NCBI RefSeq assembly: GCF_001921215.1
Contig: NZ_MSIF01000008.1
Span: 62,001 to 126,000 of the forward strand
Reading direction: 5' to 3'
Origin: Actinophytocola xinjiangensis
Lineage (GTDB): Bacteria; Actinomycetota; Actinomycetes; Mycobacteriales; Pseudonocardiaceae
Length of the DNA stretch: 64,000 bases
Below the pieces are notes generated by a model. That model saw nothing but the letters and a program-made list of their open reading frames with translations, did no database searches and had not been told where the DNA came from. Each line of letters begins with the position of its first letter. Position 1 is the stretch's first letter. Shown one piece after another: positions 6,449 through 53,190 of the stretch. Position numbers and translations under genes: made by a program.

Positions 6449-7513
6449 GTGTCACTGAGCAGAAGAATCCTGGTGGGAGCGCTCGTGGCCGGAGTCGTCG
6501 CGGCGGGCGTGGCTGTCGGGGCGGCCAGTGCGTCCGGCGGCGTCACGGCCACCGCCAACGAGTCGACGTTTCCGCTGGCGGACCCGGACACCCTGCGCGC
6601 GGAGGACGGCCGCTACGTCACCTACGGCACGACGGTCGGCGCCGGCAGGGGCAAGCGGTGCGGCGGGGTCGGAAAGCTGTGGGTCCCGGTCCTGACCCAC
6701 GGCTCGGGCAACACCGTCGGCATGTCCGACTGCGCGTCGGGCGACGCGTTGCCCGGCGGACCTGGCGAGTGGGCGTCGGGGAACATCTGGGCGCCGGGGG
6801 TGGTGCGCTTCGGTGACCGGTTCTTCATGTACTACACCGCGTCCCGGAAGGGCAGCGGGCAGAAGTGCCTCGGCAGGGCGATCTCGCGCAGCGCCTACGG
6901 CCCGTTCCGGAACGCGGGCGGCTGGGCCTGCCCGCCGGGCGGCCGGTGGGCCATCGACGCGAACCCTTTCGTCGCCGGCGGCAGGATGTACGTGGCCTAC
7001 CGCGACGACGCGATCACGTCCGGGCCGGAGACCGGGATCTCCGTGGTGCGCACCGACGGCGAGGGCCGGGCGGAGTGGTCGACCCGCCGGGACGCGCTGA
7101 AGAGCACCCACCTCACGTGGGACACCAGGCGGGCTGCCGGCACCACCCACGTGATCGAGAACCCGTCGATGTTCAAGGCCGGCGACCACTGGTTCCTCGC
7201 CTACTCCGGCAACAACTGGGACAGCGCCCGCTACGCCACCGGCATCGCGAAATGCGGCACGGGGCCGATTCCCGGCACGCGGTGCACGCCGCTGCGTGAC
7301 GGCGTGGCCAGGCCGTACTTCGGCTTCACCGGCGAGGCCGGGCTCGGCCCGTACCGTGGCCTGCCGGGCAACCACCGCGGCCCGGGCGGCCTGGACGTGT
7401 TCACCGCCGCCGACGGCGGCAAACGAGTCGTCTACCACTGGTGGAACGGAACCAGCCGGTTTCCGATGACCGGCGCGTTCGGCCGGGACTCGGGAGGCTT
7501 CCGGGTCCGGTGA
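6449..7513 (+). CDS. secreted glycoside hydrolase family 43-like protein
   Basis: 354 aa. GTG start with GGAGGAAA upstream; Sec signal peptide (RRILVGALVAGVVAAGVAVG). The five-bladed propeller signatures of GH43 are visible: ADPDTLRAEDGRYVTYGT (candidate base Asp), NIWAPGVVRFGDRFFMYYTA, IDANPFVAGGRMYVAYRDD (pKa-modulating Asp) and HVIENPSMFKAGDHWFLAYSG (candidate acid Glu). GH43 enzymes are mainly arabinan/xylan exo- or endo-hydrolases. It follows the EEP-fold gene closely and no polysaccharide locus is adjacent, so the substrate is uncertain. It ends before a 290-base spacer leading to the EF-G paralog leader. Confidence 0.85.
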   Translation: MSLSRRILVGALVAGVVAAGVAVGAASASGGVTATANESTFPLADPDTLRAEDGRYVTYGTTVGAGRGKRCGGVGKLWVPVLTHGSGNTVGMSDCASGDALPGGPGEWASGNIWAPGVVRFGDRFFMYYTASRKGSGQKCLGRAISRSAYGPFRNAGGWACPPGGRWAIDANPFVAGGRMYVAYRDDAITSGPETGISVVRTDGEGRAEWSTRRDALKSTHLTWDTRRAAGTTHVIENPSMFKAGDHWFLAYSGNNWDSARYATGIAKCGTGPIPGTRCTPLRDGVARPYFGFTGEAGLGPYRGLPGNHRGPGGLDVFTAADGGKRVVYHWWNGTSRFPMTGAFGRDSGGFRVR

Positions 7514-7764
7514 CCGGCACCGGGCCGGTTCCGCGACATTGATGCCCAAGCCGCCCGGCGAAGGCGTCGCCGGCCGGTGCGGCGACAGCTCGTCGCCGGG
7601 CGTGGCTGAGCCATCGAGGCGTGGACGCAGCCATCGATCTCGGCGCGAAAGACGTCACCTCGGTGCGGCAGACGTCCAGGTTCCCGACCGACCCGATTCC
7701 GAATGGGCGGAGGGAGACCGATGACGTACTCGGAAATTCGCGACCCATTCCGTCCTGGATCCGC

Positions 7765-7770
7765 TATAGT
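7765..7770 (+). promoter_or_regulatory. candidate -10 element for the leader/EF-G transcript
   Basis: TATAGT (5 of 6 matches to TATAAT) lies 34 bases before the leader start codon. No good -35 is visible. It is the only strong -10 in the 290-base spacer 7514-7803, which otherwise shows no gene. Confidence 0.4.
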
Positions 7771-7803
7771 CCTGTCGATCCGCGACAGTTGAGAGGAGGC
7801 GCC

Positions 7804-7899
7804 GTGTTCTGTCACGCCGTTCTCCTGTCGCGGTACGAGGTGATCCTGATCTCTTCGTCCCTTCGGTGCCCGCTGCGCGGCCGGTACCGGAACCGGTGA
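7804..7899 (+). CDS. 31-codon leader peptide upstream of the EF-G paralog
   Basis: GTG at 7804 is preceded by a near-perfect SD (GAGAGGAGG), much stronger than that of the downstream gene. The peptide begins MFCHAVLLSRYEVILISS and ends in an arginine-rich stretch (RGRYRNR). Its stop is followed within 7 nt by a long GC hairpin, and the GTPase gene starts 90 nt further on. A strongly translated mini-ORF, a hairpin and a weakly accessible main start are the arrangement of ribosome-mediated attenuation known for tet(M)-, erm- and ABC-F-type resistance genes. Assignment as a regulatory leader is inference from layout. Confidence 0.6.
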   Translation: MFCHAVLLSRYEVILISSSLRCPLRGRYRNR

Positions 7900-7905
7900 A
7901 GGCGA

Positions 7906-7936
7906 GCGCGCCGTGCCCGTACGGGCCGGTGCGCGC
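7906..7936 (+). promoter_or_regulatory. hairpin between leader ORF and EF-G paralog
   Basis: GCGCGC arms at both ends enclose an inner GCCC-GTAC-GGGC stem, giving an extended imperfect hairpin 6 nt downstream of the leader stop. It could act as a terminator or pausing structure in attenuation. Confidence 0.5.
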
Positions 7937-7968
7937 GTGGTCACGTGAATCGCGCTGACCCCGGATCA

Positions 7969-7980
7969 CCTTTCGAAAGG
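7969..7980 (+). promoter_or_regulatory. SD-overlapping palindrome of the EF-G paralog
   Basis: The perfect palindrome CCTTTCGAAAGG contains the presumed SD (GAAAGG) 9 nt before the GTG at 7990. A short hairpin here would occlude ribosome binding. Confidence 0.45.
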
Positions 7981-7989
7981 CCAGTTCTC

Positions 7990-9960
7990 GTGCGATCGCT
8001 TGACGCTGTCCGCAACCTCGGCATCCTCGCCCACGTCGACGCGGGCAAGACCACCCTCACCGAACGGATCCTCTATGCGACGGGTACGACCCACAAACGC
8101 GGCGAGGTCCACGACGGCACGACCGTCACCGACTTCGACTCGCAGGAACGCGACCGCGGCATCACCATCTTCGCCGCGGCCGTGAGCTGTGCGTGGTACG
8201 ACCACTGGATCAACCTGATCGACACCCCCGGCCACGTCGACTTCTCCGACGAGGTCGAACGGTCCCTGCGGGTGCTCGACGGCGCGGTCGTGGTGTTCGA
8301 CGCGGTCGCTGGCGTCGAGCCGCAGAGCGAGTCGGTGTGGCGGCAGGCGGACCGGCACGGCGTGCCGCGGATCGCGTTCGTCAACAAGATGGACCGCGCG
8401 GGTGCCGACCTCGACGCGGCCGTCGCGTCGATCCGGCAACGGCTGCACCCCACACCGCTGGTGGTCCAGCTGCCTGTCGGCAGCGAGCACGGGTTCACCG
8501 GTGTGGTCGACCTGATCAGGATGCGCACGTTGCGGTGGGTCGACGACACCATGGTGGACGGTCCCGTGCCCGCCGAGCTGACCAACGAGGCACGGCGACG
8601 ACGACACCAGCTCGACGAGGCGGTGGCGGAACGACATCCAGCGGCGCTGGAGGAGTTCTACGCGGACTCGGCGGTGTCCGCCGCGACGTTGACCGCAGCG
8701 TTGCGGGACCTGACCCGCAGCGGTGAGGGCGTGGTCGTGCTGTGCGGCTCGGCGTACCGCAACCGCGGGGTCGAACCACTGCTGTCCGCGGTCGTCGACT
8801 ACCTGCCCGCACCGTCGGACCCCGGCGCGCCGTTCGCCGGTCTCGTGTTCAAGGTGGTCGCGACGGACACCGGGCGGCTGACGTACGCACGAATCTATTC
8901 GGGCACGATCCGAAAAGGAGAGTCCGTTGTGAACGCCGGCACCGGACGCAAGGAACGGATCGCGCGCATCCTGCGGGTGCACGCGGACCGGCACACGGAA
9001 CTGGCGGAGGCCAGCGCGGGTGACATCGTCGCCTTCGTCGGTCCGAAGACCGCCCGTGTCGGCGCCAGCCTCTGCGCACAGTCGGCACCCGTACTCCTCG
9101 AACCGCCGACGGTCACCGAACCGGTCGTGTCCGTCGCGGTCGAGACGCGACGGTCCGCCGACACCGAACGACTGGCGGCGGCGCTGGCCCAACTGGTCGA
9201 CGAGGATCCCTCGCTGACCGTGCGCAACGACACCCAGACCGGACAGACCGTGTTGTCCGGCATGGGAGAACTGCACCTGGAGGTCGCGGTGGAGAAGATC
9301 CGGCGCAGCCGTGGTCTGGAGATCAACGTCGGTAGGCCGGAGGTGGCCTACCGGGAGACGGTCGTGTCCGGGGTGTCCGGGCTGGTGTACCGGCACGTCA
9401 AGCAGGACGGCGGCGCGGGCCAGTTCGCCCACGTCGTGCTCGACCTGGCGCCCTGCGACGACGACTTCGTGTTCCGGTCGGCCGTCGTCGGCGGCCGGGT
9501 GCCGCGGGAGTACATCCGTGCCGTGGAGACGGGGTGCCGCGACGCCCTGTCCGAGGGGCCGCTCGGCGGCCACCCCGTGACCGGACTGCGAGTCACCCTC
9601 ACCGACGGCGCCACCCATCCGAAGGACTCGTCGGAAATGGCGTTCCGGACCGCGGGCAAACTCGGGCTGCGGGAGGCGCTGCGCGCATCGGTGATCGCGC
9701 TGCTCGAACCGGTGTCCGAGATCGCGGTCACCGTTCCCGAGGACGCCATGGGCGGCGTACTCGGCGACCTGGCCGGACGCCGCGGCCGGGTCACGGCCTC
9801 GACCACACGCACCGGCACGGTGACGATCACCGCCATCGTGCCGCTGGCCGAGCTGTTCGGTTACGCGGACCGCCTGCGCAGCCGGACCCACGGCCGGGGC
9901 ACGTTCACCGCCCGGCCCGCCGGGTACGCCCCGGCGCCGACCCGGACCGTGACCGGCTGA
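7990..9960 (+). CDS. EF-G paralog / ribosomal-protection-type translational GTPase
   Basis: 656 aa, somewhat shorter than canonical EF-G (about 700). GTPase motifs: AHVDAGKT (14-21), RGIT switch I (56-59), DTPGH (78-82) and NKMD (132-135). Domains II to V follow, ending without the usual EF-G tail. The G domain ([22 protein letters not shown]) looks like EF-G rather than Tet(M)/OtrA, which normally carry NKID. The GTG at 7990 starts the conserved [14 protein letters not shown]; an upstream in-frame GTG at 7945 is possible but lacks homology. EF-G paralogs can serve in fusidic-acid or other ribosome-drug resistance, or split translocation and recycling. The leader ORF and hairpins suggest drug- or stress-induced expression. 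A strong terminator follows. Confidence 0.85.
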
Positions 9961-42582: not shown

Positions 42583-43680
42583 TCAGCCCGCGCCGCCGCG
42601 ACCAGCGAGCTGTTCGGCCGGCCAGCGCCGGCGGAGTCTCAGGCTGACGTAGACCAGTGCGACGAGGACCGGTACCTCGATGAGTGGGCCGACGACGCCG
42701 GCGAGGGCCTGGCCGGAGGTGACGCCGAAGACGCCGATGGCGACGGCGATCGCGAGTTCGAAGTTGTTGCCGGCGGCGGTGAAGGCGAGGGTCGTGGTGC
42801 GGGCGTAGCCGAGGCCGGCGGCCTTGCCGAGCAGGTACGCCCCGGCCCACATGACTGCGAAGTAGACCAGCAGCGGCAGGGCGATCCGGGCGACGTCGAG
42901 CGGGCGGGCGGTGATGGTCCCGCCTTGGAGGGCGAACAGCACGACGATCGTGAACAGCAGGCCGTACAGGGCGATCGGGCCCACGCGGGGCAGGAACGTG
43001 CCCTCGTACCAGTCCCGGCCGCGGGTGCGCTCCCCGACGCGGCGGGTCAGGTAGCCGGCGGCGAGCGGGAGGCCGAGGAAGATCACGACGGACAGTGCGA
43101 TCTCCCAGGGGGAGAACGTCACGGTCTCGGTGTCCAGGCCGAGCCAGCCGGGGAGCAGGTCGAGGTAGAACCAGCCGAGGACGCCGAACATGACGACCTG
43201 GAACACGGAGTTGAGGGCGACGAGCACGGTGGCGGCCTCACGGTCACCGCAGGCGAGGTCGTTCCAGATGATGACCATGGCGATGCAGCGGGCGAGGCCG
43301 ACGATGATCAGGCCGGTGCGGTACTCGGGCAGGTCGGGCAGCATGAGCCAGGCCAGCGCGAACATCAGCGCGGGGCCGGCGACCCAGTTGAGGACCAGGG
43401 ACAGGGCCATGGTGCGGCGGTCGCGGGTGACGGTGTCGAGCTTGTCGTAGCGGACCTTCGCCAGCACCGGGTACATCATCAGCAGCAGGCCGAGCGCGAT
43501 CGGCAGGGACACCTGGCCGATCGTGACCGCGTCCAGGGCGCCCTGCAGACCGGGGACGGCCGCGCCGAGGCCGAGACCGGCGGCCATGGCGGCGATGATC
43601 CACACGGGCAGGTAACGGTCCAGGAAGGACAGTCGGTGCAGTACGTCCTGTTCCGGGGGTGAGGTGACGCTCTGGCTCAC
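42583..43680 (-). CDS. acr3: ACR3-family arsenite efflux transporter
   Basis: 365 aa with about 10 transmembrane helices. ACR3 signatures: LDRYLPVWIIAAMAAGLGLG, the conserved Cys-containing GLARCIAMVIIWNDLACGD, and LAFTAAGNNFELAIAVAIGVFG. Exports As(III) using the proton motive force. GTG start overlaps the arsC stop (GTGA), the last gene in the ars operon. Confidence 0.96.
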   Translation of the reverse strand: MSQSVTSPPEQDVLHRLSFLDRYLPVWIIAAMAAGLGLGAAVPGLQGALDAVTIGQVSLPIALGLLLMMYPVLAKVRYDKLDTVTRDRRTMALSLVLNWVAGPALMFALAWLMLPDLPEYRTGLIIVGLARCIAMVIIWNDLACGDREAATVLVALNSVFQVVMFGVLGWFYLDLLPGWLGLDTETVTFSPWEIALSVVIFLGLPLAAGYLTRRVGERTRGRDWYEGTFLPRVGPIALYGLLFTIVVLFALQGGTITARPLDVARIALPLLVYFAVMWAGAYLLGKAAGLGYARTTTLAFTAAGNNFELAIAVAIGVFGVTSGQALAGVVGPLIEVPVLVALVYVSLRLRRRWPAEQLAGRGGAG

Positions 43681-44348
43681 GGGCGGTGGTCTCCTGGGGT
43701 CGGGTCGCGGTGCGCGACACCGAGGTCGTCGAGCAGGGCGCGGACGCGGCGTTCGATCTCGTCGCGGACGGGGCGGACGTCAGCGACGGTCTTGCCGGCG
43801 GGGTCGTCGAGGGTCCAGTCGAGGTAGCGCTTGCCGGGGAACACGGGGCAGATGTCGCCGCAGCCCATGGTGACGACCACGTCGGCGGCCTGGACGATCT
43901 CGTCGGTCCAGGGCTTGGGGAACTCGCGGGAGATGTCGATGCCACGTTCGGCCATGGCGTCGACGGCGGACGGGTTGACCGTGTGGCCAGGTTCGGAACC
44001 GCCGGACCAGGCCACCGCTCGGTCGCCGACGAGGTGGTGGAAGAACCCGAGCGCCATCTGGGAGCGGCCGGCGTTGTGGACGCACAGGAACAGCACGGTC
44101 GGCTTTCCGGCTGTGCGGCCTTCCACCGTGGCCAGCGCGCGCAGACGTTGGCGGGCGAACCGCTCCGCGAGCAGCGGCAGGAAGGTGGGCACGGTGCTGC
44201 GGGCGGCGAACTGGTCGTAGCTGGAGCGCAGGAACCGCTCGATGGTCTCGGCGCTGAAGGTGCCGTCGAACTCGGTGTGCAGCTGGGTGGCGGCGGTGGC
44301 CAGCGCGTGCTGGAGGTCGACGCTCAGGTCATGGCGTTGGTCGGTCAT
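43677..44348 (-). CDS. arsC: arsenate reductase, LMW-phosphatase type with N-terminal helical domain
   Basis: 223 aa. Residues 1-85 form the three-helix N-terminal domain seen in mycothiol/mycoredoxin-linked actinobacterial ArsC enzymes (LRSSYDQFAARSTV, LPLLAERFARQRL). Residues 88-223 are the LMW-PTP fold with the CX5R loop FLCVHNAGRSQMA and the catalytic-loop region GSEPGHTVNPSAVDAM. Reduces As(V) to As(III) for export by the next gene. ATGA overlap with the ArsR-phosphatase fusion upstream. Confidence 0.95.
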   Translation of the reverse strand: MTDQRHDLSVDLQHALATAATQLHTEFDGTFSAETIERFLRSSYDQFAARSTVPTFLPLLAERFARQRLRALATVEGRTAGKPTVLFLCVHNAGRSQMALGFFHHLVGDRAVAWSGGSEPGHTVNPSAVDAMAERGIDISREFPKPWTDEIVQAADVVVTMGCGDICPVFPGKRYLDWTLDDPAGKTVADVRPVRDEIERRVRALLDDLGVAHRDPTPGDHRP

Positions 44349-45034
44349 CGTTGCGCTCCGCGTGCGTGGACGGCGGGCACCAGCCGGTCGACCCGGTTGG
44401 CGAGGTCGGTGAACGCGCGGTCGAACGCGTCGTCGGTGGCGGCCACGGCCGGGTCCGGGACCGACCAGTGCAGGCGGTCCAACGGTCCGGTGAGCTGCTC
44501 GTGGGCGTTGTCGCAGACCGCGACGACCAGGTCGTCCGGCCGAAGGACCTCGTCGACCCGAGCGGTCCGCGCGTGGGCGAGGGACAGGCCGTGGTTGTCG
44601 GCCACGGCGATGGCCAGGGGGTGGATTCGCTGGGCCGGTTGGGTGCCGGCCGATGCGGCGGGGACCGTGCTGCGCTCGGTCCACAGCGCGGCGGCCAGCT
44701 GGGACCTGGCGGAATTGTGCGTGCACACGAACACCACCCGTGGCGCGTGCACCGACCCCTCCGGCACGAGCCCGGCCAGCGCCTCGGGGCACAGCCGCAG
44801 GTAGGTGCGGCGGTGGTCGCCCTCGGAGCGGGACCGCTGGACGACCCCGGCCTGTTCGAGCTGCTTGACATGGTGGGCCAGCAGGTTGCTGGACATCCCC
44901 AGCTCACGCCCGAGCTCAACCGGCGCGGCATCGCCCAGCACGAGCCGGTCGACGATCGCGAGCCGCGCGGGCTCGCCCAGCACGGCGTGCAGCCGTGCCC
45001 GCACCACCACCGAGGAAGACCACTCAACGTCCAT
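44345..45034 (-). CDS. ArsR repressor fused to a LMW-phosphatase/arsenate-reductase-like domain
   Basis: 229 aa. N-terminal ArsR wHTH (LGEPARLAIVDRLVLGDAAPVELGRELGMSSNLLAHHVKQLEQAGVVQRSR, about 20-70), C-terminal LMW-PTP domain (about 95-229; VFVCTHNSARSQLAAALW, AGTQPAQRIHPLA). Such fusions are frequent in actinobacterial ars operons; whether the phosphatase half is an active reductase or a sensor is unknown. An inverted repeat lies 4 bp upstream of the start. Overlaps arsC by ATGA. Confidence 0.93.
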   Translation of the reverse strand: MDVEWSSSVVVRARLHAVLGEPARLAIVDRLVLGDAAPVELGRELGMSSNLLAHHVKQLEQAGVVQRSRSEGDHRRTYLRLCPEALAGLVPEGSVHAPRVVFVCTHNSARSQLAAALWTERSTVPAASAGTQPAQRIHPLAIAVADNHGLSLAHARTARVDEVLRPDDLVVAVCDNAHEQLTGPLDRLHWSVPDPAVAATDDAFDRAFTDLANRVDRLVPAVHARGAQR

Positions 45035-45037
45035 TGA

Positions 45038-45053
45038 CTCAATGATGATTGAG
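45038..45053. promoter_or_regulatory. ArsR-type operator
   Basis: CTCAAT-GATG-ATTGAG, perfect 6-bp arms, within the 32 bp between the flavoprotein stop and arsR start. Suggests an internal autoregulated promoter. Confidence 0.65.
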
Positions 45054-45066
45054 CAATCAGTCCGGG

Positions 45067-46092
45067 TCAAGGGGCCGGTCGACGAAGTAGCCGGCGCACG
45101 ACGTGGCGGGCGTCGCGGCCGACGCCGCGGAGGGTGGCGGAGGCGAAGCTGCGTTGCCATTCCAGGCCCACGAACCCCAGCCCTGGAGACGTGGTGGAGA
45201 TTCCCTTGCGGTGACCGCGATCCGCTGGGTCCAGGTAGGACAGTGCGGGTCGGTAGCCGGTGGCGAGCAGGATCGTGTCGACGTGTTCGCGGGTGCCGTC
45301 GGGCCAGGTGACGGTGTCGCCGTCGACGGTGGTGAACACCCGACGCTGGTCGGGGCTGCCCGCCGCGAGTGCGCGGCGGTAGCGGCCGTCGTCGTTGACC
45401 GGCATGTGGGGTGCGGTGCGCAGCAGGTGTCCGATCGGCAGGTGGTCGAACCCGCTTGCCACCGACCAGAAGTGCACGTCTCGGCCCAGCGGGCGCTGCG
45501 GCGCGAACGTCACCGGTTTGCGCGTGGCGAGCGTGACCGTGGCGACCCTGGCGAGTTCGTGCGCGACCTGCACGGCGGTGTTCGCGGCCCCGACGACGAC
45601 CACGCGCTGCCCGATGAACGGGCTCGGCTCGCGGTAGTCGGCGGAGTGCAGAACCGCGCCGGTGAAGGACTCCAGTCCTGGCAGCGCCGGGCGGTGCGGC
45701 TGCCCGAACGCGCCGGACGCGGCGATCACGACCCTGGCGGTCAGCTCGGTACCGTCCTCGACCCGAACGGTGAACTGGCCGTCGTCTCGGCGAACGGCGA
45801 CCACGCGCTGGCCGGTGCGGAGGTCGACGGCGAGGTTCTTGGCGTAACGGCGCAGGTAGTCGACCACCTCGTCGCGGTGCGGGTAGTGGTCCGGGTCGCC
45901 GGGGAAGGGCAGGCCGGGCAGGGAGCTGTACCGGGCCGGGGAGAACAGGGTCAGGCTGTCGTAGTAGGAGGGCCAGGAGCCGACCGGTTCGGGCCCTGCT
46001 TCGAGCACGACCGGTGCGAGACCCTCGTGACGAAGTGCGTGAGCGGCGGCCAGGCCGGACTGCCCGGCGCCGATGACAACGGCGTCGATCAT
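45067..46092 (-). CDS. ArsO-like flavin-dependent monooxygenase
   Basis: 341 aa. FAD motif VIGAGQSGLAAA (about 6-17), NADPH motif VVVGAANTAVQVAHELA (about 172-188, second Gly replaced by Ala) and ATGYRPALSYLD near the C-terminus. Matches the ArsO/CzcO class found in ars operons; ArsO is linked to oxidation of arsenicals, though the exact reaction is debated. Co-directional with and 32 bp upstream of arsR. Confidence 0.87.
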   Translation of the reverse strand: MIDAVVIGAGQSGLAAAHALRHEGLAPVVLEAGPEPVGSWPSYYDSLTLFSPARYSSLPGLPFPGDPDHYPHRDEVVDYLRRYAKNLAVDLRTGQRVVAVRRDDGQFTVRVEDGTELTARVVIAASGAFGQPHRPALPGLESFTGAVLHSADYREPSPFIGQRVVVVGAANTAVQVAHELARVATVTLATRKPVTFAPQRPLGRDVHFWSVASGFDHLPIGHLLRTAPHMPVNDDGRYRRALAAGSPDQRRVFTTVDGDTVTWPDGTREHVDTILLATGYRPALSYLDPADRGHRKGISTTSPGLGFVGLEWQRSFASATLRGVGRDARHVVRRLLRRPAP

Positions 46093-46198
46093 GGGAAGGT
46101 GCCCCCAACTGGTGATCGGGGTCGCGCACGGGGCAGCGAGGACGATCCGCCGCCCCGTGTGCGACTCCTGCTCGGCTCGGCGGTCGCGGGTGCGCCGC

Positions 46199-47515
46199 TC
46201 ACCGGTCCCGTGGCGCGGACAGGGTCAGCAGCCGCGGTTCGGCGGGCTCGCCGCAGCAACCGCCGCCCGGTGGGGTGGGCTCGTCGAAGACGCCGGAGCC
46301 GCCGCACACCCCGGTCTCGGGCAGGACCAGCTCGACGCGTTCGGCGGACTCGCGGTCGCCGGCGATCGCGGCGGCGATGGAGCGGACCTGTTCGTAGCCG
46401 GTCATCGCGAGGAACGTCGGTGCGCGGCCGTAGCTCTTCATCCCGGCGAGGTAGACATCCGGTTCGGGATGGGTCAGTTCCTTCACGCCGTGGGGGTAGA
46501 CCGTGCCGCAGGAGTGGGCGTTCGGGTCGATCAGGGGCGCGAGCGCGACCGGCGCCTGCAAGGTGGCGTCCAGGTCCAGGCGCAGCTCCGAGAGCCACGT
46601 CAGGTCGGGCCGGAAGCCGGTCAGGACCACGATCTCGTCGACGTCGGGCACCGTGTGGCCACTGTCGGACACCACCGTCAGCCCGGTGTCGTGCCGTTGG
46701 ACCGTCTCGGTGCGAAAGCCCGTCACGACAGCGATGCGCCCGGCCTCGACGGCGGCCTTCGCGCCCAGGCCGAGCGCGCCGCGCGCCGGGAGCTGGTCGG
46801 CGTCGCCACCGCCGAACGTCGAGCCAACGGCGCCGCGCCGCAGCAGCCAGGTGATCCGCCCCGCGACGTCGGCGAACGCGACGAGCGCGGTCAACGCCGA
46901 GTGCCCACTGCCCGCGATGAGCACGTGCCGTCCGGCGTAGCGGGCCCGTACGGCGTCGTCGGTGAGGTCGGGGACACGGTAGGTGATCCGGTCCGCTGCC
47001 GCGTGCTCGCCGATGGCCGGCAGGCCGTCGCCGCCCAGCGGGTTGGGGTCGCCCCAGGTGCCGGACGCGTCGACCACCGCGCGGGCGGTGATCCGCTCCT
47101 CGCGACCGTCGGCGTGGCGAACGTGCACGGTCAGCGGTTCGGTGTCCCGGCCGGCGTCGACCACCCGGTCCCGTCCCCGACGGGCGACCCCGACGACCTC
47201 GGCCCCGAACACGACCTGGTCGCCCAGTGTCTCGGCCAGCGGGCGCAGGTAGCGGGACACCCACTCCCGGCCCGTGGGGTAGGTGGCGTCGTCGGGGCGC
47301 TGCCAGGGCGTGCCCGCGAGCAGCCGTCCGGCGGCCGGGGCAACCAGCTCCGACCACGGGGAGAAGAGCCGGACGTGGTGCCACCCGGCCACCGCCGCGC
47401 CGGCCTGACCGGCCTTGTCCAGCACCAACGGCCGCTGGCCACGTTCCACCAGTTCGGCCGCGGCCGCCAGCCCCACCGGGCCGGCACCGACCACCACCAC
47501 GGGCAGCTCCGACAT
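46199..47515 (-). CDS. FAD/NAD(P)-binding oxidoreductase of the ars operon with Cys-rich tail
   Basis: 438 aa. VVVGAGPVGLAAAAEL (FAD) and VLIAGSGHSALTALVAF (NADPH) Rossmann motifs; TGFRPDLTWLSE and LAGMKSYGRAPTFLAMTGYEQVRS in the distal part. The C-terminus carries Cys in GVCGGSGVF and GGGCCGEP, plausible arsenite ligands. This flavoprotein recurs in actinobacterial ars clusters. First gene of the five-gene operon, divergent from ArsR-ArsN. Confidence 0.85.
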   Translation of the reverse strand: MSELPVVVVGAGPVGLAAAAELVERGQRPLVLDKAGQAGAAVAGWHHVRLFSPWSELVAPAAGRLLAGTPWQRPDDATYPTGREWVSRYLRPLAETLGDQVVFGAEVVGVARRGRDRVVDAGRDTEPLTVHVRHADGREERITARAVVDASGTWGDPNPLGGDGLPAIGEHAAADRITYRVPDLTDDAVRARYAGRHVLIAGSGHSALTALVAFADVAGRITWLLRRGAVGSTFGGGDADQLPARGALGLGAKAAVEAGRIAVVTGFRTETVQRHDTGLTVVSDSGHTVPDVDEIVVLTGFRPDLTWLSELRLDLDATLQAPVALAPLIDPNAHSCGTVYPHGVKELTHPEPDVYLAGMKSYGRAPTFLAMTGYEQVRSIAAAIAGDRESAERVELVLPETGVCGGSGVFDEPTPPGGGCCGEPAEPRLLTLSAPRDR

Positions 47516-47562
47516 CGTCCCACTCCGTTCATCGACAGCGCTCGATCACTTGCGGCGAGAGT

Positions 47563-47578
47563 ATCGATCCGGATCGAT
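47563..47578. promoter_or_regulatory. ArsR operator, perfect 16-bp palindrome
   Basis: ATCGATCC-GGATCGAT in the 140-bp divergent region between the flavoprotein operon and arsR-arsN, closest to the operon start. Confidence 0.75.
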
Positions 47579-47587
47579 GAAATCAAC

Positions 47588-47599
47588 CATCGATCGATG
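47588..47599. promoter_or_regulatory. 12-bp palindrome CATCGATCGATG
   Basis: Perfect palindrome between the two ATCGATCC-type repeats; it may be part of the same operator array. Confidence 0.5.
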
Positions 47600-47629
47600 T
47601 CGATGATCGACGGTGTCGTTTGACGCATC

Positions 47630-47645
47630 ATCGATCCACGTCGAT
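47630..47645. promoter_or_regulatory. ArsR operator, second copy
   Basis: ATCGATCC-ACGTCGAT, imperfect version of the palindrome at 47563, 10 bp upstream of the arsR-arsN start. Confidence 0.65.
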
Positions 47646-47655
47646 ACTCGGCGCC

Positions 47656-48498
47656 ATGACCGCCCCGGTGCTGCCCGAGCAGGAAGCCGCGACCTACGCC
47701 GAATGGTTCGCCGTCCTCGCCGAACCCACCCGCGTCCGCCTGCTGCACACCGTCGCCACCTCGCCCGGCGGCGTCACGGTCGGCCGGCTCACCGAACTGC
47801 TCGGCATCAGCCAGTCCACCTGCTCCCACCACGTCCGCAAACTCGCCGACGTCGGCTTCCTCACCCTCCACAAGGAAGGCACCAGCACCCGCGTGGTCGT
47901 CAACGAGGCCTGCTGCGCCGGCCTCCCGCACGCCGCCGACGCCGTCATGGGCCTGCTCGCGCCACGCCCCTGCTGCCCGCCCGACGTACGTGACGACGTC
48001 ACCGTCCGCGCCCTGCACCCCGCCGACTGGCCGGCCGTGCGCGACATCTACGGCCAGGGCATCGCCACCGGCATCGCCACCTTCGACACCACCGTGCCCA
48101 GCCGCGCGTCCCTCGACGCGAGATGGCTGCCCGGTCACCGCTGGGTCGCCGAACTCGACGGCGAGGTCGTCGGCTGGACCGCCCTGTCCCCCACCTCCCC
48201 CCGCGACTGCTACTCCGGCGTCGCCGAGAGCGCCATCTACGTCGCCGGCGGTCACCGCGGCACGGGCATCGGCAAGGCCCTCGTCCGCCGGCAGGTCACC
48301 GCCGCCGACGACGACACCGGCCTGTGGACCCTGCAGACCGCCGTCCTCACCGAGAACCGCGCCAGCATCGCCCTGCACCACCAGGCCGGCTACCGCACCG
48401 TCGGCATCCGCGAACGCATCGCCCGACTCCACGGCACCTGGCACGACACCGTCCTGCTCGAACGCCGTGCCGGCACCACCACTGGGCCCGGCTGCTGA
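47656..48498 (+). CDS. ArsR repressor fused to an ArsN-type GNAT acetyltransferase
   Basis: 280 aa. ATG at 47656 starts MTAPVLPEQE. ArsR wHTH about 15-90 (LAEPTRVRLLHTVA, GISQSTCSHHVRKLADVGFL) with Cys pairs (EACCAG, PRPCCPP) as likely As(III) ligands. GNAT domain about 110-280 of the PAT/ArsN type (IYGQGIATGIATFDTTVPS, GWTALSPTS, SAIYVAGGHRGTGIGKAL, ENRASIALHHQAGYRTVG). ArsN1 enzymes acetylate arsinothricin, the arsenical antibiotic, and PAT relatives acetylate phosphinothricin. The fusion makes sensor and detoxifier one protein; divergent from the ars operon with shared operators. Confidence 0.92.
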   Translation: MTAPVLPEQEAATYAEWFAVLAEPTRVRLLHTVATSPGGVTVGRLTELLGISQSTCSHHVRKLADVGFLTLHKEGTSTRVVVNEACCAGLPHAADAVMGLLAPRPCCPPDVRDDVTVRALHPADWPAVRDIYGQGIATGIATFDTTVPSRASLDARWLPGHRWVAELDGEVVGWTALSPTSPRDCYSGVAESAIYVAGGHRGTGIGKALVRRQVTAADDDTGLWTLQTAVLTENRASIALHHQAGYRTVGIRERIARLHGTWHDTVLLERRAGTTTGPGC

Positions 48499-48520: not shown

Positions 48521-49219
48521 TCAGGCGTTCGGGGCCGGGGCGCGGGCCCAGTCCATGCGCGACCACGGGTGGGCCAGGTCGTCCACGGTGGACACCGGGG
48601 TCGGTGCGAGGGTGTCGATCGGCGGGGCGTCCCGGTGGCGGGCGAACACCGTGTCGGCGTAGCGGTGGCCGGTGTCGGCGACCAGGTAGGTGGCGAGCGC
48701 TCCGGTGGAGGCGCCGGAGCCCACCCCGCCGACGAGCGTGAGCGGGCCGTTGCCGAGTTCGCCGGCGATCCGGTCGGCGACGGCGCGGTAGCCGAGACAG
48801 TGGATGTCGTCGTGGTACTGGCGCATCCAGTGGTGGCCGGGGTTGTCGCGCAGGATCTCGTGGATGCGTGCGACCCGGCGGTTCTGGTCGAGCGTGAGGC
48901 TCGCCGAGGACGGCATCTGTTCGAGGTGCGCGCCGAGCACCGCGAGTTGGGCGCGCAGGGTGTCGTCGACGGTGGTGGAGCCGACGATGTGGCAGCGCAG
49001 GCCGTACCGGTGGCAGGCGAGCGCGAGCGCGTGGGCGTAGATGCCGCTGGAGGAGTCGAGCAGCGTGTCCCCGGGACGAACCCGGCCGGTGTCGAGCAGG
49101 TGCCGGACGGCGGCGAGCGCGGAGACGACCTTCATCGACTCAAACCGCAGGCAGACGAGCCCGTCGTCGAGGCGGACGAGGTCCGGTCTGCCGAGCGCGT
49201 CGGTGATGTGGGCGTCCAT
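48521..49219 (-). CDS. short PLP-dependent enzyme of the cysteine-synthase fold
   Basis: 232 aa, against about 300 for cysteine synthase or SbnA. Features: candidate PLP lysine in LRFESMKVVSA, a TSGNTG-like loop replaced by DSSSGIYAHALALA, and the glycine phosphate-binding loop LVGGVGSGASTGALATYL. The normal N-terminal strand and C-terminal cap are shortened. Enzymes of this fold join O-acetyl- or O-phosphoserine to nucleophiles; SbnA-type members make diaminopropionate precursors of metallophores. Overlaps the GHMP kinase gene by 80 bp and belongs to an operon divergent from an exporter with a Zur-like box. Confidence 0.75.
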   Translation of the reverse strand: MDAHITDALGRPDLVRLDDGLVCLRFESMKVVSALAAVRHLLDTGRVRPGDTLLDSSSGIYAHALALACHRYGLRCHIVGSTTVDDTLRAQLAVLGAHLEQMPSSASLTLDQNRRVARIHEILRDNPGHHWMRQYHDDIHCLGYRAVADRIAGELGNGPLTLVGGVGSGASTGALATYLVADTGHRYADTVFARHRDAPPIDTLAPTPVSTVDDLAHPWSRMDWARAPAPNA

Positions 49220-50114
49220 GCCTGCCTTCCGGTCCGCTGGTGGTGAAGATCCGGGTGACGGGGATACCGCGGTCGCCGAGGGCGGCCACGCACCGCCGGA
49301 GGCGCCGGTCCAGATCCGGGGTCGCCGGGTCGAACAGCAGACCGGCGACGTTGCCGCTGTGCGCGACCTGCACCCCGGCCGACCCGGTCCGCCGGGCGAT
49401 GGCCTCCAGCGTGGCGAGTTCCTCCTTGGGCAGCACGCGCTGGTTGTGCCGCGCGCTCGCGGTGCTGACCTGGCCCAGCAGCGCGAGGTCGGTCTCGGCG
49501 ATCGCGCGGCGCAGCAGGGCCCGCAGGCGTTCGAACTCGGCCACGTCGTCGTGGCCGGGCAGGCTCAGGGTGTTCACCGGGGCACCGCCGCCGGTCAGGC
49601 AGCCGACGACGACCGCGGGCGGCAGCGCGTCACCCAGTTCCTCCAGGACCCGGCCTTCCCTGTGGGCGAACAGCACGGGCCGGTCGGAGAGCATCAGCGG
49701 GTCGCTCGCCTGTTCGGCCGCGACGGCGAGGCGGGCGATCACCTCGCCGGACAGGCCGGCACCGAAACTCGCCGCGACCGCGCGGATGGTGGCGATGACG
49801 TCGCCGGTGGACGAGCCCATGCCCAGCCCGAGCGGAATGTCGCCGTCGATCCGCAGATCCCCGCCACGGCGCGGCCTTCCGGTCAGCCGCGCGCACTCGG
49901 CGATCGCGAGCGACGCGGCCCGGGCGGCCTTCACCCGGTCCGCCGGGCGCACCACGACCTCGCCGCCGGGTCGCGGGGTGAACTCGGCGCGGACCCCCGG
50001 GCCGGTCAGCGGCAACGTGACCAGCCCCCGGCACGGCCGTCCCGACGCGTCGAGGAAGACGCCCTGGAGGATCTCGCCGTGGTGGCAGGACGCGTGCCCG
50101 GTGCCCGCGATCAT
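49140..50114 (-). CDS. GHMP-family kinase (PduX/L-threonine-kinase-like)
   Basis: 324 aa. N-terminal GHASCHHGEILQGVF, the GHMP ATP motif GDIPLGLGMGSSTGDVIA (PxxxGLGSS-type, about 108-124) and a C-terminal SAGVQVAHSGNVAGLLFDP region. The opening resembles PduX-type kinases that phosphorylate threonine, so an amino-acid hydroxyl (Ser or Thr) is a reasonable substrate. The last about 35 residues are Arg-rich and lie inside the overlap with the PLP gene; the true functional end may be earlier. ATGA overlap with the upstream gene indicates coupling. Confidence 0.85.
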   Translation of the reverse strand: MIAGTGHASCHHGEILQGVFLDASGRPCRGLVTLPLTGPGVRAEFTPRPGGEVVVRPADRVKAARAASLAIAECARLTGRPRRGGDLRIDGDIPLGLGMGSSTGDVIATIRAVAASFGAGLSGEVIARLAVAAEQASDPLMLSDRPVLFAHREGRVLEELGDALPPAVVVGCLTGGGAPVNTLSLPGHDDVAEFERLRALLRRAIAETDLALLGQVSTASARHNQRVLPKEELATLEAIARRTGSAGVQVAHSGNVAGLLFDPATPDLDRRLRRCVAALGDRGIPVTRIFTTSGPEGRHGRPHHRRARQTGPRPPRRRARLPAV

Positions 50115-50518
50115 GCCCGCTTCGCCGCGCGGTAGCGGTGCAGCACGGTGGGGTCGGCGCTGAACTGGGAGAACGGGAAGGGTTCCGCCGACAGCGCGGT
50201 GACGCCGGCGCCGAGGAACTCCCGCGCGACCGCGCTGCCGCTCTGCGCGTAGACGACCAGCGGCACGTCCCGTTCCCGGCAGCGGCGGACGATCTCGTCG
50301 AAGGTGCCGTTGCCCAGGGTCATGCCGGTGGCCTCGAACGCGCAGGCACCGAAGGACGATCCACAGCGGACAAGCAGGTACTGGTTGCGGTACGTGGTGT
50401 TCCCGCCGGCCAGCCGGGTGCCGTGGTGCAGCCAGAACACGCTCGTGGCGACCAGTTCCGCCGGCGGGGTCCCGAGTTCGCCCTGACGTACGCGTAGGGC
50501 GATTTCGTCGACGGTCAC
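50111..50518 (-). CDS. unrecognised 135-aa protein, first gene of the kinase/PLP operon
   Basis: GTG start. Soluble alpha/beta protein; begins MTVDEIALRVRQGELG, with an internal VFWLHHGTRLAGGNTTYRNQYLLVRCG and a GACAFEATGMTLG segment, ending in FSADPTVLHRYRAAKRA. No family recognised, no signal or membrane segment. Its position (first in the operon, ATGA-coupled to the kinase, divergent from an exporter) suggests a biosynthetic or sensing role in the same pathway. Confidence 0.7.
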   Translation of the reverse strand: MTVDEIALRVRQGELGTPPAELVATSVFWLHHGTRLAGGNTTYRNQYLLVRCGSSFGACAFEATGMTLGNGTFDEIVRRCRERDVPLVVYAQSGSAVAREFLGAGVTALSAEPFPFSQFSADPTVLHRYRAAKRA

Positions 50519-50616
50519 ACCGCACCGTCACGGTGGCGCCGGAACGGCCGGGCGACGTCGAACAAGTCCACAGTGGATCCTTCCCGGGGGACGACGTACG
50601 ACCGCAATACTACAAA

Positions 50617-50631
50617 TGAAAACCATTATCG
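50617..50631. promoter_or_regulatory. Zur-like box
   Basis: TGAAAACCATTATCG matches the actinobacterial Zur consensus TGAAAATCATTTTCA at 12 of 15 positions. It directly precedes the -10 of the MFS gene and lies about 100 bp upstream of the divergent operon, so it could repress both when zinc is sufficient. Confidence 0.7.
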
Positions 50632-50633
50632 TC

Positions 50634-50639
50634 TAGAGT
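50634..50639 (+). promoter_or_regulatory. -10 element of a leaderless promoter for the MFS gene
   Basis: TAGAGT ends 6 nt before the GTG at 50646, so transcription would begin at or next to the start codon. Confidence 0.55.
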
Positions 50640-50645
50640 GTGGGC

Positions 50646-51869
50646 GTGACGACCACGGACCACCTCAGGCGATCGGTACTGCGCGAACCGACGTTCGTCC
50701 GGCTGTGGCTGGGCACCACCGCCTCCGGCCTCGCGACCTGGGCGTTGCCGTTCGTCCTGGGACTCGCGGTCCTCACCCGCGAACTGGGCGCGGCGGGACT
50801 CGGCGTGGTGCTCGCCGCCCGAACGGTCGGGTTCCTGCTGGCGGTGCCGGTCAGCGGAGTGCTCGCCGACCGCCACTCGCGCCGCGGCGTCGTGCTGTGG
50901 TCCGGGCTGGCGGCGGCCGTTGGCGCACCCGTGATGGCACTCGGGCTCGACCGGTCGGTGCCGCTCATGGCGGCCGCCGCGGTGGTGGTCGGCGCGGGGC
51001 AGGGCGCGTGCCGCCCGGCGTTCCAGGCGCTCGTGGCCGAGACAGTCGAACCGGAGCGCAGGCAGACCGCCAACGCGGCGATGGCGCTGTCGGTCCGGGT
51101 CGTCACGCTCAGCGCCCCCGCGCTGACCGCGCTGCTGGCGACGGTGTTCAGCACGGCCGCGCTCCTGGTCGGCACCGGCCTGGTCTGGCTGTTCGCCGCC
51201 CTCGCGCCCCCGGCCGGCCGGCACGTCGCCGAGGCCACGCCCACCCACCGGGTCTCGTTCGTCCACGAGTTCACCGAGGGCGTGTGGGAGGCCCGGCGAC
51301 ACCCGTGGTTCCTCGCCGGGCTCGGCGCGCTGACCGCGGTGATCGCCACCGGCTACTCGGCCACCGGCGTCGTGCTGCCCCTGGTCAGCCGGGACGCCTT
51401 CGGCACCGAGGCGGTACTCGCCGCGGCGCTGACCGCGTACACGGTCGGCGGCCTGCTCGGCGCCCTGGTGGTCGCCCGCTGGCGCCCCTCGGCACCGGGC
51501 TGGGCCGCGCTCGTCGCGCTGGCCTGCTACGGGTTCGCACCGCTGGCGCTGCTGTTCCCCGTGCACTGGGCACTGGTCGTGGCCGCGTACCTCGTCGCCG
51601 GGCTCGGCATCGAACTGTTCAACGTGCCGTGGTTCACGGCCACCCAGCGGGAGGTCGCGCCGGACAAGCTCGCCCGGGTGTCCTCATTGGACTTCCTGCT
51701 GTCGTACGGGCTCGCGCCGGTGGGACTCGCGCTCATCGCACCCGCCATCAACGCCTTCGGGGTCACCGCCGTGCTCGGCGTGTGCGCGGCCGTGTGCTTC
51801 GCGGTCCCGACCGCCGTGATGTTCGCGCCGACGACTCGGGACTTCGGCCGGGCGCGCTCACGTCCGTGA
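50646..51869 (+). CDS. MFS transporter, EntS/macrolide-efflux type, putative metallophore exporter
   Basis: 407 aa with 12 predicted helices and the MFS loop motif GVLADRHSRRGVVL. Similar in layout to EntS-like exporters of small acidic chelators (FVRLWLGTTASGLATWALPF, NVPWFTATQREVAPDKLARVSSLD). The GTG at 50646 was chosen from the leaderless promoter spacing; a GTG 6 nt upstream is also in frame. Divergent from the kinase/PLP operon across a Zur-like box, so export of the product of that operon under zinc limitation is the simplest reading. Confidence 0.82.
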   Translation: MTTTDHLRRSVLREPTFVRLWLGTTASGLATWALPFVLGLAVLTRELGAAGLGVVLAARTVGFLLAVPVSGVLADRHSRRGVVLWSGLAAAVGAPVMALGLDRSVPLMAAAAVVVGAGQGACRPAFQALVAETVEPERRQTANAAMALSVRVVTLSAPALTALLATVFSTAALLVGTGLVWLFAALAPPAGRHVAEATPTHRVSFVHEFTEGVWEARRHPWFLAGLGALTAVIATGYSATGVVLPLVSRDAFGTEAVLAAALTAYTVGGLLGALVVARWRPSAPGWAALVALACYGFAPLALLFPVHWALVVAAYLVAGLGIELFNVPWFTATQREVAPDKLARVSSLDFLLSYGLAPVGLALIAPAINAFGVTAVLGVCAAVCFAVPTAVMFAPTTRDFGRARSRP

Positions 51870-51913: not shown

Positions 51914-52948
51914 CTACGGGCAGACCAGTTCGGGCGCCTGCGGAACCGAACCGGACGACGTGAGCATCGCCAGGCCCGGGCCGCCGAGTCCGAGGACGGC
52001 CTGGGCGGTCGCGCGCACGCTCGTCGCCGGGTCGTGGCCGGTCCCGTCGTAGGCGATCGCGCCCCGCAGGGACGCGTCGGCGTCGCAGCCGGCCTGGAGG
52101 CCCAGGACGAAGGTCCTCGCCTGGTGGGCGGCCCACGACCGGCCACCGGCCAGGAAGGCCTGGCCGGCCAGGCCGGTGGTGTTCGCGTTGGGCGCGACGG
52201 TCGACGATCCGTCCCCGTAGGACAGTCCGCCGTTGGTCTGTTGCCTGCCCGCCAACCAGGTCAGGCCCTGTTGGGCCGTGGCGTGCCGGCCGGTCGCGAG
52301 CAGCGCCTGGACGACCATCGCCGTGGCGTCGGTGTCGCTCGCGCACACGGAGGCACCGAAGGTGAGCGGGAAACCACCGTCGGGGCACTGCGTGTCGACG
52401 GCGAACGCCACCGACGATGCCGGTGCTCCGCCGGCCGTGCGGCTCAGGGTGATGATCGCCAGCGACTGGGAGAACGCGTTGCTGTAGTCACCGAACTCCG
52501 AGCGGTCGGCGAACCGGCCGGACGGGGCGAGCAGCCCGCGCAGCCGCGCCGGCAGGTCCACACCGCCGACGTTCGCCGGGTCCAGCCCACGCACCTGCGC
52601 GGCCAGCGACGCCTTGGCCGTGGCACCGGCGTAGGCCTCGGTGACCCCGTCGCCGACGTACCCGGTCAGGTTCGCCGGCCGCGCCAGCCAGGCGATCGCC
52701 GCCGCCCCGTGGCTGTCCGCCGCCTTCGCCGACGCGAACGCGAGAACGCCGTCGATGGTCAACCCCGCGTCCGGGTAGCCGACCCCACCGAAGTCGACCT
52801 CGAAGTGATCGCCGTCGACCATCTGCCGGGCGAGCCACCCGGCCGCGGCATCGGCCTTCCGTGCCGCCCCCGGCCCGGCGGCGCCAGCCGTTCCTGGGCT
52901 GACGAGCACGACACACGCGACGACCACCGCGGCAATGCGAAATCTCAT
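51914..52948 (-). CDS. secreted prenyltransferase/terpene-cyclase-like alpha/alpha-toroid protein under a cobalamin riboswitch
   Basis: 344 aa. ATG at 52948 with SD GGAAAGG; signal peptide 1-23. The rest consists of helical-hairpin repeats of the squalene/prenyltransferase toroid type (AAGWLARQMVDGDHFEVDF, CPDGGFPLTFGASVCASDTDATAMVVQALLA, WLAGRQQTNGGLSYGDG, NANTTGLAGQAF), lacking the DxDD motif of real cyclases. The toroid matches the alpha6/alpha6 domain of animal transcobalamin. With a B12 riboswitch upstream, an extracellular cobalamin (or corrinoid) binding role is likely; no attached DUF4430 domain or sorting signal is seen. Confidence 0.85.
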   Translation of the reverse strand: MRFRIAAVVVACVVLVSPGTAGAAGPGAARKADAAAGWLARQMVDGDHFEVDFGGVGYPDAGLTIDGVLAFASAKAADSHGAAAIAWLARPANLTGYVGDGVTEAYAGATAKASLAAQVRGLDPANVGGVDLPARLRGLLAPSGRFADRSEFGDYSNAFSQSLAIITLSRTAGGAPASSVAFAVDTQCPDGGFPLTFGASVCASDTDATAMVVQALLATGRHATAQQGLTWLAGRQQTNGGLSYGDGSSTVAPNANTTGLAGQAFLAGGRSWAAHQARTFVLGLQAGCDADASLRGAIAYDGTGHDPATSVRATAQAVLGLGGPGLAMLTSSGSVPQAPELVCP

Positions 52949-52953
52949 GTGAA

Positions 52954-52982
52954 GCCTTTCCGGAACACAGGCCCGGAAAGGC
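52954..52982 (-). promoter_or_regulatory. SD-sequestering stem, riboswitch expression platform
   Basis: Perfect 10-bp stem (GCCTTTCCGG / CCGGAAAGGC) with a 9-nt loop. The 3' arm on the transcript contains the SD GGAAAGG of the toroid gene, so folding blocks translation. Confidence 0.8.
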
Positions 52983-53039
52983 GGGCACACCTCGACCCGG
53001 CCTCGGCTCCGGCCCCGCGAACCACGACGAGGTAGGGAG

Positions 53040-53148
53040 AAAACTCCGTCCACGGCGGGCATCAGGGCTCACGACCTCGTTGGGCCGCACACCTTTGCGG
53101 GTCAGCGCCGGTCTCTCACCGGACTTCCCCCGCCGGGGACGTCTTCAG
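53040..53148 (-). ncRNA. cobalamin riboswitch aptamer
   Basis: On the minus strand the conserved cobalamin elements occur in order: GGGGGAAGTCCGGTGAGAGA, then CCGGCGCTGACCCGCAAAGG (the CCGGTG-ACCGGC-CTG-CCCGC-A core), and downstream GAGCCCTGATGCCCGCCGTG (the GAGCC-GA-ACC-GCC analogue). About 60 nt separate it from the SD-sequestering stem. Expected to lower translation of the toroid protein when B12 is plentiful. Confidence 0.88.
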
Positions 53149-53190
53149 TTGAAAACGACCAATTCTGCGCAGCCGTCAGGCCTGCCGTCA

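Follow-up and report, generated by a model that had tools for sequence, protein, structure and literature searches.

The accessible part of a review on Zur names two metallophores of actinomycetes under Zur control, coelibactin and EDDS. In excerpts of published papers, coelibactin of Streptomyces coelicolor appears as a Zur-repressed zincophore cluster (PMC6103462, PMC5472717), and the EDDS genes of Amycolatopsis japonicum as having been found via Zur-binding motifs (PMC4993170, PMC6103462). The EDHA operon consists of four genes, AesA-D, and EDHA is iron-responsive according to an excerpt of its description (PMC10702961). Here we analyse a stretch of 64,000 nucleotides from Actinophytocola xinjiangensis (the window), which contains a compact divergent locus with genes for a DUF364 (PF04016) protein, a GHMP kinase, a pyridoxal-phosphate (PLP) enzyme and an exporter of the major facilitator superfamily (MFS). 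An earlier note had read this locus as a working minimal three-gene pathway for a zinc metallophore. Two of the three biosynthetic genes proved to carry large internal deletions and no other copy of DUF364 was found in the genome, which speaks against a working pathway in the window.

We consider it rather probable that the window locus is a biosynthetic operon that lost its function recently and belongs to a Zur-controlled metallophore system, of which the exporter and the importer were kept. Judged by boxes, importer and exporter, the corresponding gene set of many actinobacteria probably serves to produce a small molecule that scavenges zinc. The system is widespread among actinobacteria and, so far as could be found, apparently undescribed: among the literature matches listed, which covered no preprints and few subscription papers, no report tied Zur or a zincophore to DUF364, the kinase or the PLP enzyme. 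The locus comprises the following features:

48521-49219, minus strand: remnant of an SbnA/CysK-like PLP enzyme, 232 aa (PF00291, 75.4 bits)
49140-50114, minus strand: GHMP kinase, 324 aa, apparently intact (PF00288, 47 bits; cut-off 22.3)
50111-50518, minus strand: remnant of a DUF364 (PF04016) protein, 135 aa (two-block match to relatives)
50617-50631, plus strand: Zur-like box TGAAAACCATTATCG in the divergent promoter region (12/15 match to TGAAAATCATTTTCA)
50640-51869, plus strand: MFS exporter, 409 aa, apparently intact (PF07690, 117.8 bits; PF05977, 32.8 bits)

Pfam and NCBIfam hits together with the coordinates bear out the MFS, the GHMP kinase and the PLP enzyme in a tightly packed operon, as first described. 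The designation of the exporter as EntS-like also holds, with both MFS models exceeding their curated cut-offs (27 bits for PF05977, which we take to be the family that holds EntS). The MFS is 71% identical to that of an intact relative, locus L033. The kinase keeps the GLGMGSST motif, and the last 80 nt of its gene overlap the PLP gene; a comparable overlap is found in L033. No PduX model appeared among the NCBIfam hits of the window proteins, for a library whose content of such a model was unchecked.

Internally shortened biosynthetic genes in the A. xinjiangensis assembly

Close orthologs of the locus, termed type 1 (the layout with GHMP kinase and FecCD importer), were found in 19 genomes of an order-wide sample of 298. 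This sample was searched with the shortened protein as query and is free of selection for completeness. The 135-aa query matched in 32 of the 298 genomes, its own included, and in the 19 type-1 genomes the match splits into two separated blocks. A small novel protein at 50111-50518 was ruled out by this two-block match. The supposedly unknown protein is instead a DUF364 protein that lacks 129-133 codons, and the supposedly short PLP enzyme is one of full-length type that lacks about 99. With PF04016 the remnant scored 12.9 bits, under the cut-off of 23; the intact relative in L033 scored 40.9 bits.

Full-length counterparts in Actinophytocola algeriensis measure 263 aa (DUF364) and 332 aa (PLP), and the called genes of the 19 type-1 genomes 265-313 aa and 328-373 aa, respectively. 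An alignment of 16 rows (13 of the 19 type-1 loci, the two congeners A. algeriensis (G298) and A. xanthii (G302), and the window) showed that the DUF364 remnant retains residues 1-62 and the last 73 with nothing between, the loss after residue 62 being in frame. The PLP remnant has its in-frame loss after residue 179. At the DNA level 387 and 399 nt are missing from the DUF364 gene relative to the two congeners, and about 297 nt from the PLP gene. Alignment of the PLP sequences with the same choice of rows revealed that the near-invariant blocks GIGSSIPF and FAGLS(S/T)GA are absent from the remnant (GLSSGA is gone); the invariant SMK/TMK lysine, presumed to be the PLP lysine, is still there. 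In cysteine-synthase-fold enzymes the serine of the FAGLS(S/T)GA motif touches the PLP ring nitrogen. Synthesis is probably dead, since the two in-frame deletions took away the central part of the DUF364 protein as well as a portion of the PLP enzyme.

Neither deletion was present in the 19 orthologous loci of the order sample or in the two congeners, 15 of these 21 being aligned. In a second set, of named genomes, the lost parts were present in 77/77 PLP homologues and 80/80 DUF364 homologues; the three of the 80 named loci without a PLP match are all short contig pieces. These 80 were the top-ranking ones of 282, a choice that favours complete loci. A short PLP enzyme as a natural form was ruled out, since all 77 named homologues span the lost part. 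A hidden second copy was likewise rejected, as a genome search at E 0.001 found no further DUF364. Among six genomes of the genus the PLP enzyme was matched in four (its own, A. algeriensis, A. xanthii and, only distantly, G300); G299 and G301 gave no match.

AlphaFold modelled the window PLP enzyme with a mean predicted local distance difference test (pLDDT) score of 67.1, and residues 163-207 and 215-232 fell below 50; the input alignment included intact relatives, and AlphaFold is no test of stability. The ratio of nonsynonymous to synonymous substitution rates (dN/dS) on retained codons between window and A. algeriensis was 0.23 for DUF364, 0.30 for PLP, 0.33 for the kinase and 0.19 for the MFS. 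Against A. xanthii the values were 0.24, 0.24, 0.35 and 0.21, and between the two congeners 0.24, 0.20, 0.27 and 0.18. The ratios gave no dating of the loss, the retained codons displaying no clear rise.

That the locus encodes a minimal pathway of three genes that works with enzymes small by nature is, on these data, very improbable. The preserved reading frames, the dN/dS values that are not clearly raised and the conserved kinase and box would fit such a pathway, but shortened forms occur in 0 of 19 + 2 orthologous loci (15/21 aligned), about half of the DUF364 protein is gone, and the PLP enzyme is without two near-invariant blocks and modelled with confidence mostly below 50 over its last 70 residues.

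Conservation of the complete gene set

In all 19 type-1 loci we found DUF364, PLP, FecCD, ATPase and MFS genes. A substrate-binding protein (SBP) lipoprotein was present in 18, the kinase in 17 and a methyltransferase in six; the MFS is of the window's kind in 16/19 loci and of another kind in 3/19. Searches of named genomes revealed 282 DUF364 relatives, and the best 80 were loaded. The system is present, whole or in part, in all of these 80 loci, which come mostly from Streptomyces and also from Kitasatospora, Amycolatopsis, Prauserella, Thermocrispum, Lentzea, Umezawaea, Saccharothrix, Pseudonocardia and others. Within the 66 of them that span at least 18 kb (the named loci below), DUF364 and PLP genes were detected in 66 each, ATPase in 64, FecCD in 63, SBP in 62, MFS in 61, the kinase in 57 and the methyltransferase in 29, counted as hits anywhere in the locus, so that FecCD, ATPase, SBP and MFS may include distant paralogues. 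Gene order varies among the named loci. The genes thus co-occur in other genomes, in both sets of loci, as the earlier note had proposed to check.

Absence of the kinase from 9/66 named and 2/19 type-1 loci fits a phosphoserine-like substrate from primary metabolism. Phosphoserine is also supplied by an established primary pathway.

Three public plasmid records name the genes generically ('DUF364 domain-containing protein', 'GHMP kinase' or, in one of them, 'hypothetical protein', 'pyridoxal-phosphate dependent enzyme', 'iron ABC transporter permease'). On plasmid pMLb of Mesorhizobium japonicum (L227) a kinase + PLP pair at 6953-8958, outside the present system, lies beside transketolase and threonine synthase genes, and its incomplete gene table lists no nearby transporter.

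Fifteen more distant loci (L051-L065) also have a DUF364 and a PLP gene, in a second layout; the pair therefore is the shared core. This type 2 would be the layout with an L-amino-acid ligase, an enolase-like enzyme and a Dpp/Nik-type importer. Pfam analysis of L056 identified, besides the core, an L-amino-acid ligase, an enolase-superfamily enzyme, an MFS, a methyltransferase and a Dpp/Nik-type importer. A Zur-like site was found in 8/15 of these loci.

Predicted regulation by Zur

The 12/15 match of TGAAAACCATTATCG to TGAAAATCATTTTCA was confirmed, and no other site in the window has three or fewer mismatches to this pattern. The box fits 9/11 specified positions of the S. coelicolor Zur motif derived from chromatin immunoprecipitation (ChIP), given as tGaNNatSatNNtCa in the available excerpt (PMC5472717). 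It is identical in A. algeriensis, and comparison of the window with the two congeners revealed a conserved island, TACAAATGA.AACCATT..CGTCTAGA, amid an otherwise diverged promoter region. A genome-wide search with TGAWAAYSRTTWTCA at up to two mismatches detected 19 sites compared with 2 for the reversed control. With at most one mismatch, the 9.5-Mb genome contains two sites, the window box and one on contig C56 about 4 kb from znuA.

The genome has four FUR-family matches. On C56 a FUR-family gene immediately precedes a ZnuA-family gene (PF01297, 229.7 bits), followed downstream by an ATP-binding cassette (ABC) ATPase, an ABC-3 permease and an L28 ribosomal-protein gene (an L28 paralogue). 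Zur-like boxes with 1 to 3 mismatches occur there, one of them 34 nt before the L28 gene; this cluster is a classical Zur regulon. The boxes on C56 and on contig C19, which carries the importer genes, fit 9 or 10 of the 11 positions of the ChIP motif. From its sequence, the window operon is a predicted member of the Zur regulon, with Zur putatively binding at its box.

A Zur-like box, taken in relatives as a site with at most two mismatches to a relaxed pattern, was present in the promoter regions (from 300 nt upstream to 60 nt downstream of the projected start of each system gene) of 60/66 named loci. Promoter regions account for 160,005 of 1,239,201 bases and contain 71 sites, against 16 elsewhere. 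The reversed pattern gave no site in the promoter regions of any of the 66 loci and one site elsewhere, and 40 shuffled patterns reached a mean of 0.10 and a maximum of 2 of 66 loci. Since the pattern was relaxed after the first loci had been seen, the weight rests on the shuffled controls and not on the fit. Over all best 80 loci, 69 contain a box at any position and one contains a match to the reversed control; in the order sample a site lies within 16 kb in 16/19 type-1 loci, with no control run there.

Importer genes outside the window

A FecCD-ATPase-SBP importer is encoded on contig C19 (5985-8766) of the same genome, apart from the biosynthetic operon. Its proteins are 80% (SBP), 71% (ATPase) and 80% (FecCD) identical to those of the A. 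algeriensis importer, which adjoins intact biosynthetic genes of its own. A Zur-like box with two mismatches begins 5 nt upstream of the called FecCD start on C19. The small look of the window locus thus results from gene loss and from the position of the importer genes on another contig. A methyltransferase elsewhere in the genome was considered and dropped, the only candidate being one weak match of 28%.

Searching the 298 genomes for the SBP revealed 32 matching genomes at E <=1e-100 and 43 at 1e-50. The 32 consist of 14 with an intact type-1 DUF364, the genome of A. xinjiangensis itself, nine without a type-1 DUF364 and eight others. G204 and G235, both among the nine, have a more distant DUF364 elsewhere in the genome. 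Eight of the nine were fetched (G168 was not), and 8/8 have an operon with PLP and ATP-grasp-type genes. Its gene content in L211-L215 and L224-L226 (genus g4, G235, G204) is methyltransferase, FecCD, ATPase, lipoprotein, PLP and ATP-grasp; no Zur-like box and no adjoining DUF364 were found in 8/8, the domains being assigned by Pfam in L211 only.

In the remaining eight genomes the importer is present without any DUF364 match and without a PLP gene beside it, a pattern consistent with a ligand that can be acquired externally. A Zur-like site lies at the importer or its MFS in five of these loci (L216, L218, L219, L220, L223), the L218 site and one L220 site sitting inside the called FecCD start. 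In L222 the box is found just before a CobW-family gene instead, and no Zur-like site was detected at L217 and L221. The exporter MFS gene of L220 (11410-12662) is seemingly split over two frames. L219 (10917-15491), a FecCD importer locus without DUF364 match, has an MFS and a Dpp/Nik-like importer next door; by eye, the first residues of these neighbours resemble the type-2 layout.

Putative pathway and function

In the proposed mechanism, zinc-bound Zur would occupy the promoter boxes and be released when zinc is scarce. The GHMP kinase would phosphorylate serine (or threonine), yielding phosphoserine or phosphothreonine, and the PLP enzyme may eliminate the phosphate and add an amine nucleophile to form an N-linked amino-carboxylate. 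The DUF364 enzyme, in some loci together with the methyltransferase, would complete the chelator. Gene content suggests its export by the MFS, and the lipoprotein/FecCD/ATPase importer would recover the metal complex. In this strain the kinase, the exporter and the importer on C19, with its own Zur-like box, remain after the two deletions. We infer loss of production in this strain, zinc as the metal, each reaction step and continued uptake. The original proposal of a Zur-controlled zinc metallophore is well supported for the intact relatives, given their gene content, the boxes in 60/66 loci and the linked FecCD importer, and is not supported for the window copy as a working minimal pathway.

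Several observations weigh against this interpretation. The remnants contain no stop codon and no frameshift and display no clear rise in dN/dS, and both deletions are in frame, which with random lengths happens by chance in 1 of 9 cases. Such in-frame losses without decay leave room for an assembly fault or for an altered function that was retained, and either the loss is recent or there was no loss at all. Boxes are absent from L036, L043 and L048 (3/19 type-1 loci) and from the promoter regions of 6/66 named loci. Shuffled windows contained a site with up to three mismatches in 5/100 cases (mean 0.05), and the window box alone is therefore modest evidence. Finally, the available part of the DUF364 crystal structure paper predicts a heavy-metal role from gene context and ties the family to iron, tungstate, vanadium and molybdate, not to zinc (PMC2954201).

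An assembly or sequencing artefact, with DUF364 and PLP genes that are really intact and a complete system whose importer lies on another contig, appears unlikely to us. It would account for two in-frame losses in adjacent genes without other decay, and the assembly is a draft of 72 contigs. On the other hand, the locus lies well inside a contig of 342.7 kb, the importer genes on C19 are as long as their homologues, and, by comparison with the congeners, the first junction (DUF364) shares about 4 bp and the second has no clear repeat. Usual assembly words are much longer than such a match.

We rate as very improbable a metallophore that serves a metal other than zinc (iron, nickel, cobalt or copper) and whose boxes are read by another Fur-family protein. 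The four FUR-family matches, the permease labelled as an iron ABC permease in public records and the metals named in the DUF364 gene context (PMC2954201, in excerpt) would be compatible with it. The boxes fit the ChIP-derived Zur motif, however, and occur also in the zur/ZnuA/L28 cluster of the genome. The iron control was rejected, with iron-box-like sites in only 3/66 named loci (no null run).

A Zur-controlled pathway to an intracellular metabolite for zinc shortage, with transporters that move something else, is a distinctly unlikely alternative. No product is known for the system, the available part of the crystal structure paper proposes flavin or pterin derivatives (PMC2954201), and the incomplete gene table of the Mesorhizobium plasmid lists no transporter near the kinase-PLP pair. 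Against this, importer and MFS occur in nearly all loci, and the eight importer-only genomes of the order sample fit a ligand that comes from outside.

Beyond the reading of the window locus as an inactivated metallophore operon, we tentatively suggest, with a conviction just short of evenly balanced, that DUF364 and the SbnA-like PLP enzyme form the core of a hitherto undescribed class of zincophores under Zur control in actinobacteria, made without a non-ribosomal peptide synthetase (NRPS) or an NRPS-independent siderophore (NIS) synthetase and encoded in at least two layouts, and that this strain and the eight importer-only genomes are non-producers using the zincophore of their neighbours. 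DUF364, whose crystal structure dates from 2010, would gain a role; to our knowledge, no reaction is known for the family. The window copy would be a natural case of gene loss, with synthesis apparently broken and export and uptake kept, in which metallophore sharing is testable. The system behind the window locus is worth testing; taken by itself, the locus is modest.

Neighbouring features of the window

At lower coordinates than the locus, 43677-48498 contains a neighbourhood of arsenic type that includes two flavoproteins. A fusion of a helix-turn-helix domain and a low-molecular-weight phosphatase is encoded at 44345-45070, and a fusion of an ArsR-like protein and an ArsN1-like acetyltransferase at 47620-48498 (ArsN1 family A, 125 bits; cut-off 170). 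ARAGORN called a tRNA-Asp at 44563-44659 inside a coding frame, which is probably false, because Rfam detected no tRNA in the window at gathering score. On the other side, a cobalamin riboswitch (53037-53152, minus strand; 35.3 bits, cut-off 31.5) precedes the gene at 51914-53062, whose product resembles the SCO2321 family (89.5 bits against a cut-off of 300).

Relation to described metallophores

In S. coelicolor, excerpts of published work describe SCO0472 as a predicted substrate-binding lipoprotein (PMC6593405), SCO0475 as Zur-regulated (PMC4726154) and SCO0476 as having a putative Zur site (PMC10320115).

The AlphaFold model of the intact DUF364 protein of a congener (mean pLDDT 91.9) gave 3l5o (E 8.6e-9) and 3npg (E 7.1e-8) as best fold matches. 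These structures, Dhaf4260 and PH1506, share its fold at 14-16% identity, and we know of no reaction for either of them.

The precursor pathway of staphyloferrin B (SbnA/SbnB) has the SbnA-like PLP enzyme in common with the system, and the phosphoserine supply is proposed here. A difference is that the window PLP enzyme scored 62.9 bits with the SbnA model TIGR03945, below the cut-off of 349.95; the intact relatives were not scanned with this model. None of the eight L033 genes gave a Pfam hit to a NIS synthetase (IucA/IucC).

Opine-like zincophores such as staphylopine and pseudopaline are made from few genes, linked to zinc and exported by a dedicated route, and resemble the present system in all three respects. 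In L033, the Pfam hits for the eight genes included neither an opine dehydrogenase nor a nicotianamine-synthase-like protein. Coelibactin is an NRPS product and in this differs from the L033 system, in whose eight genes Pfam detected no NRPS domain.

EDHA, in the available excerpt, differs by being iron-responsive (PMC10702961). By their description, [S,S]-EDDS and EDHA (aesA-D) are likewise small metallophores, of aminopolycarboxylate type, made without NRPS or NIS.

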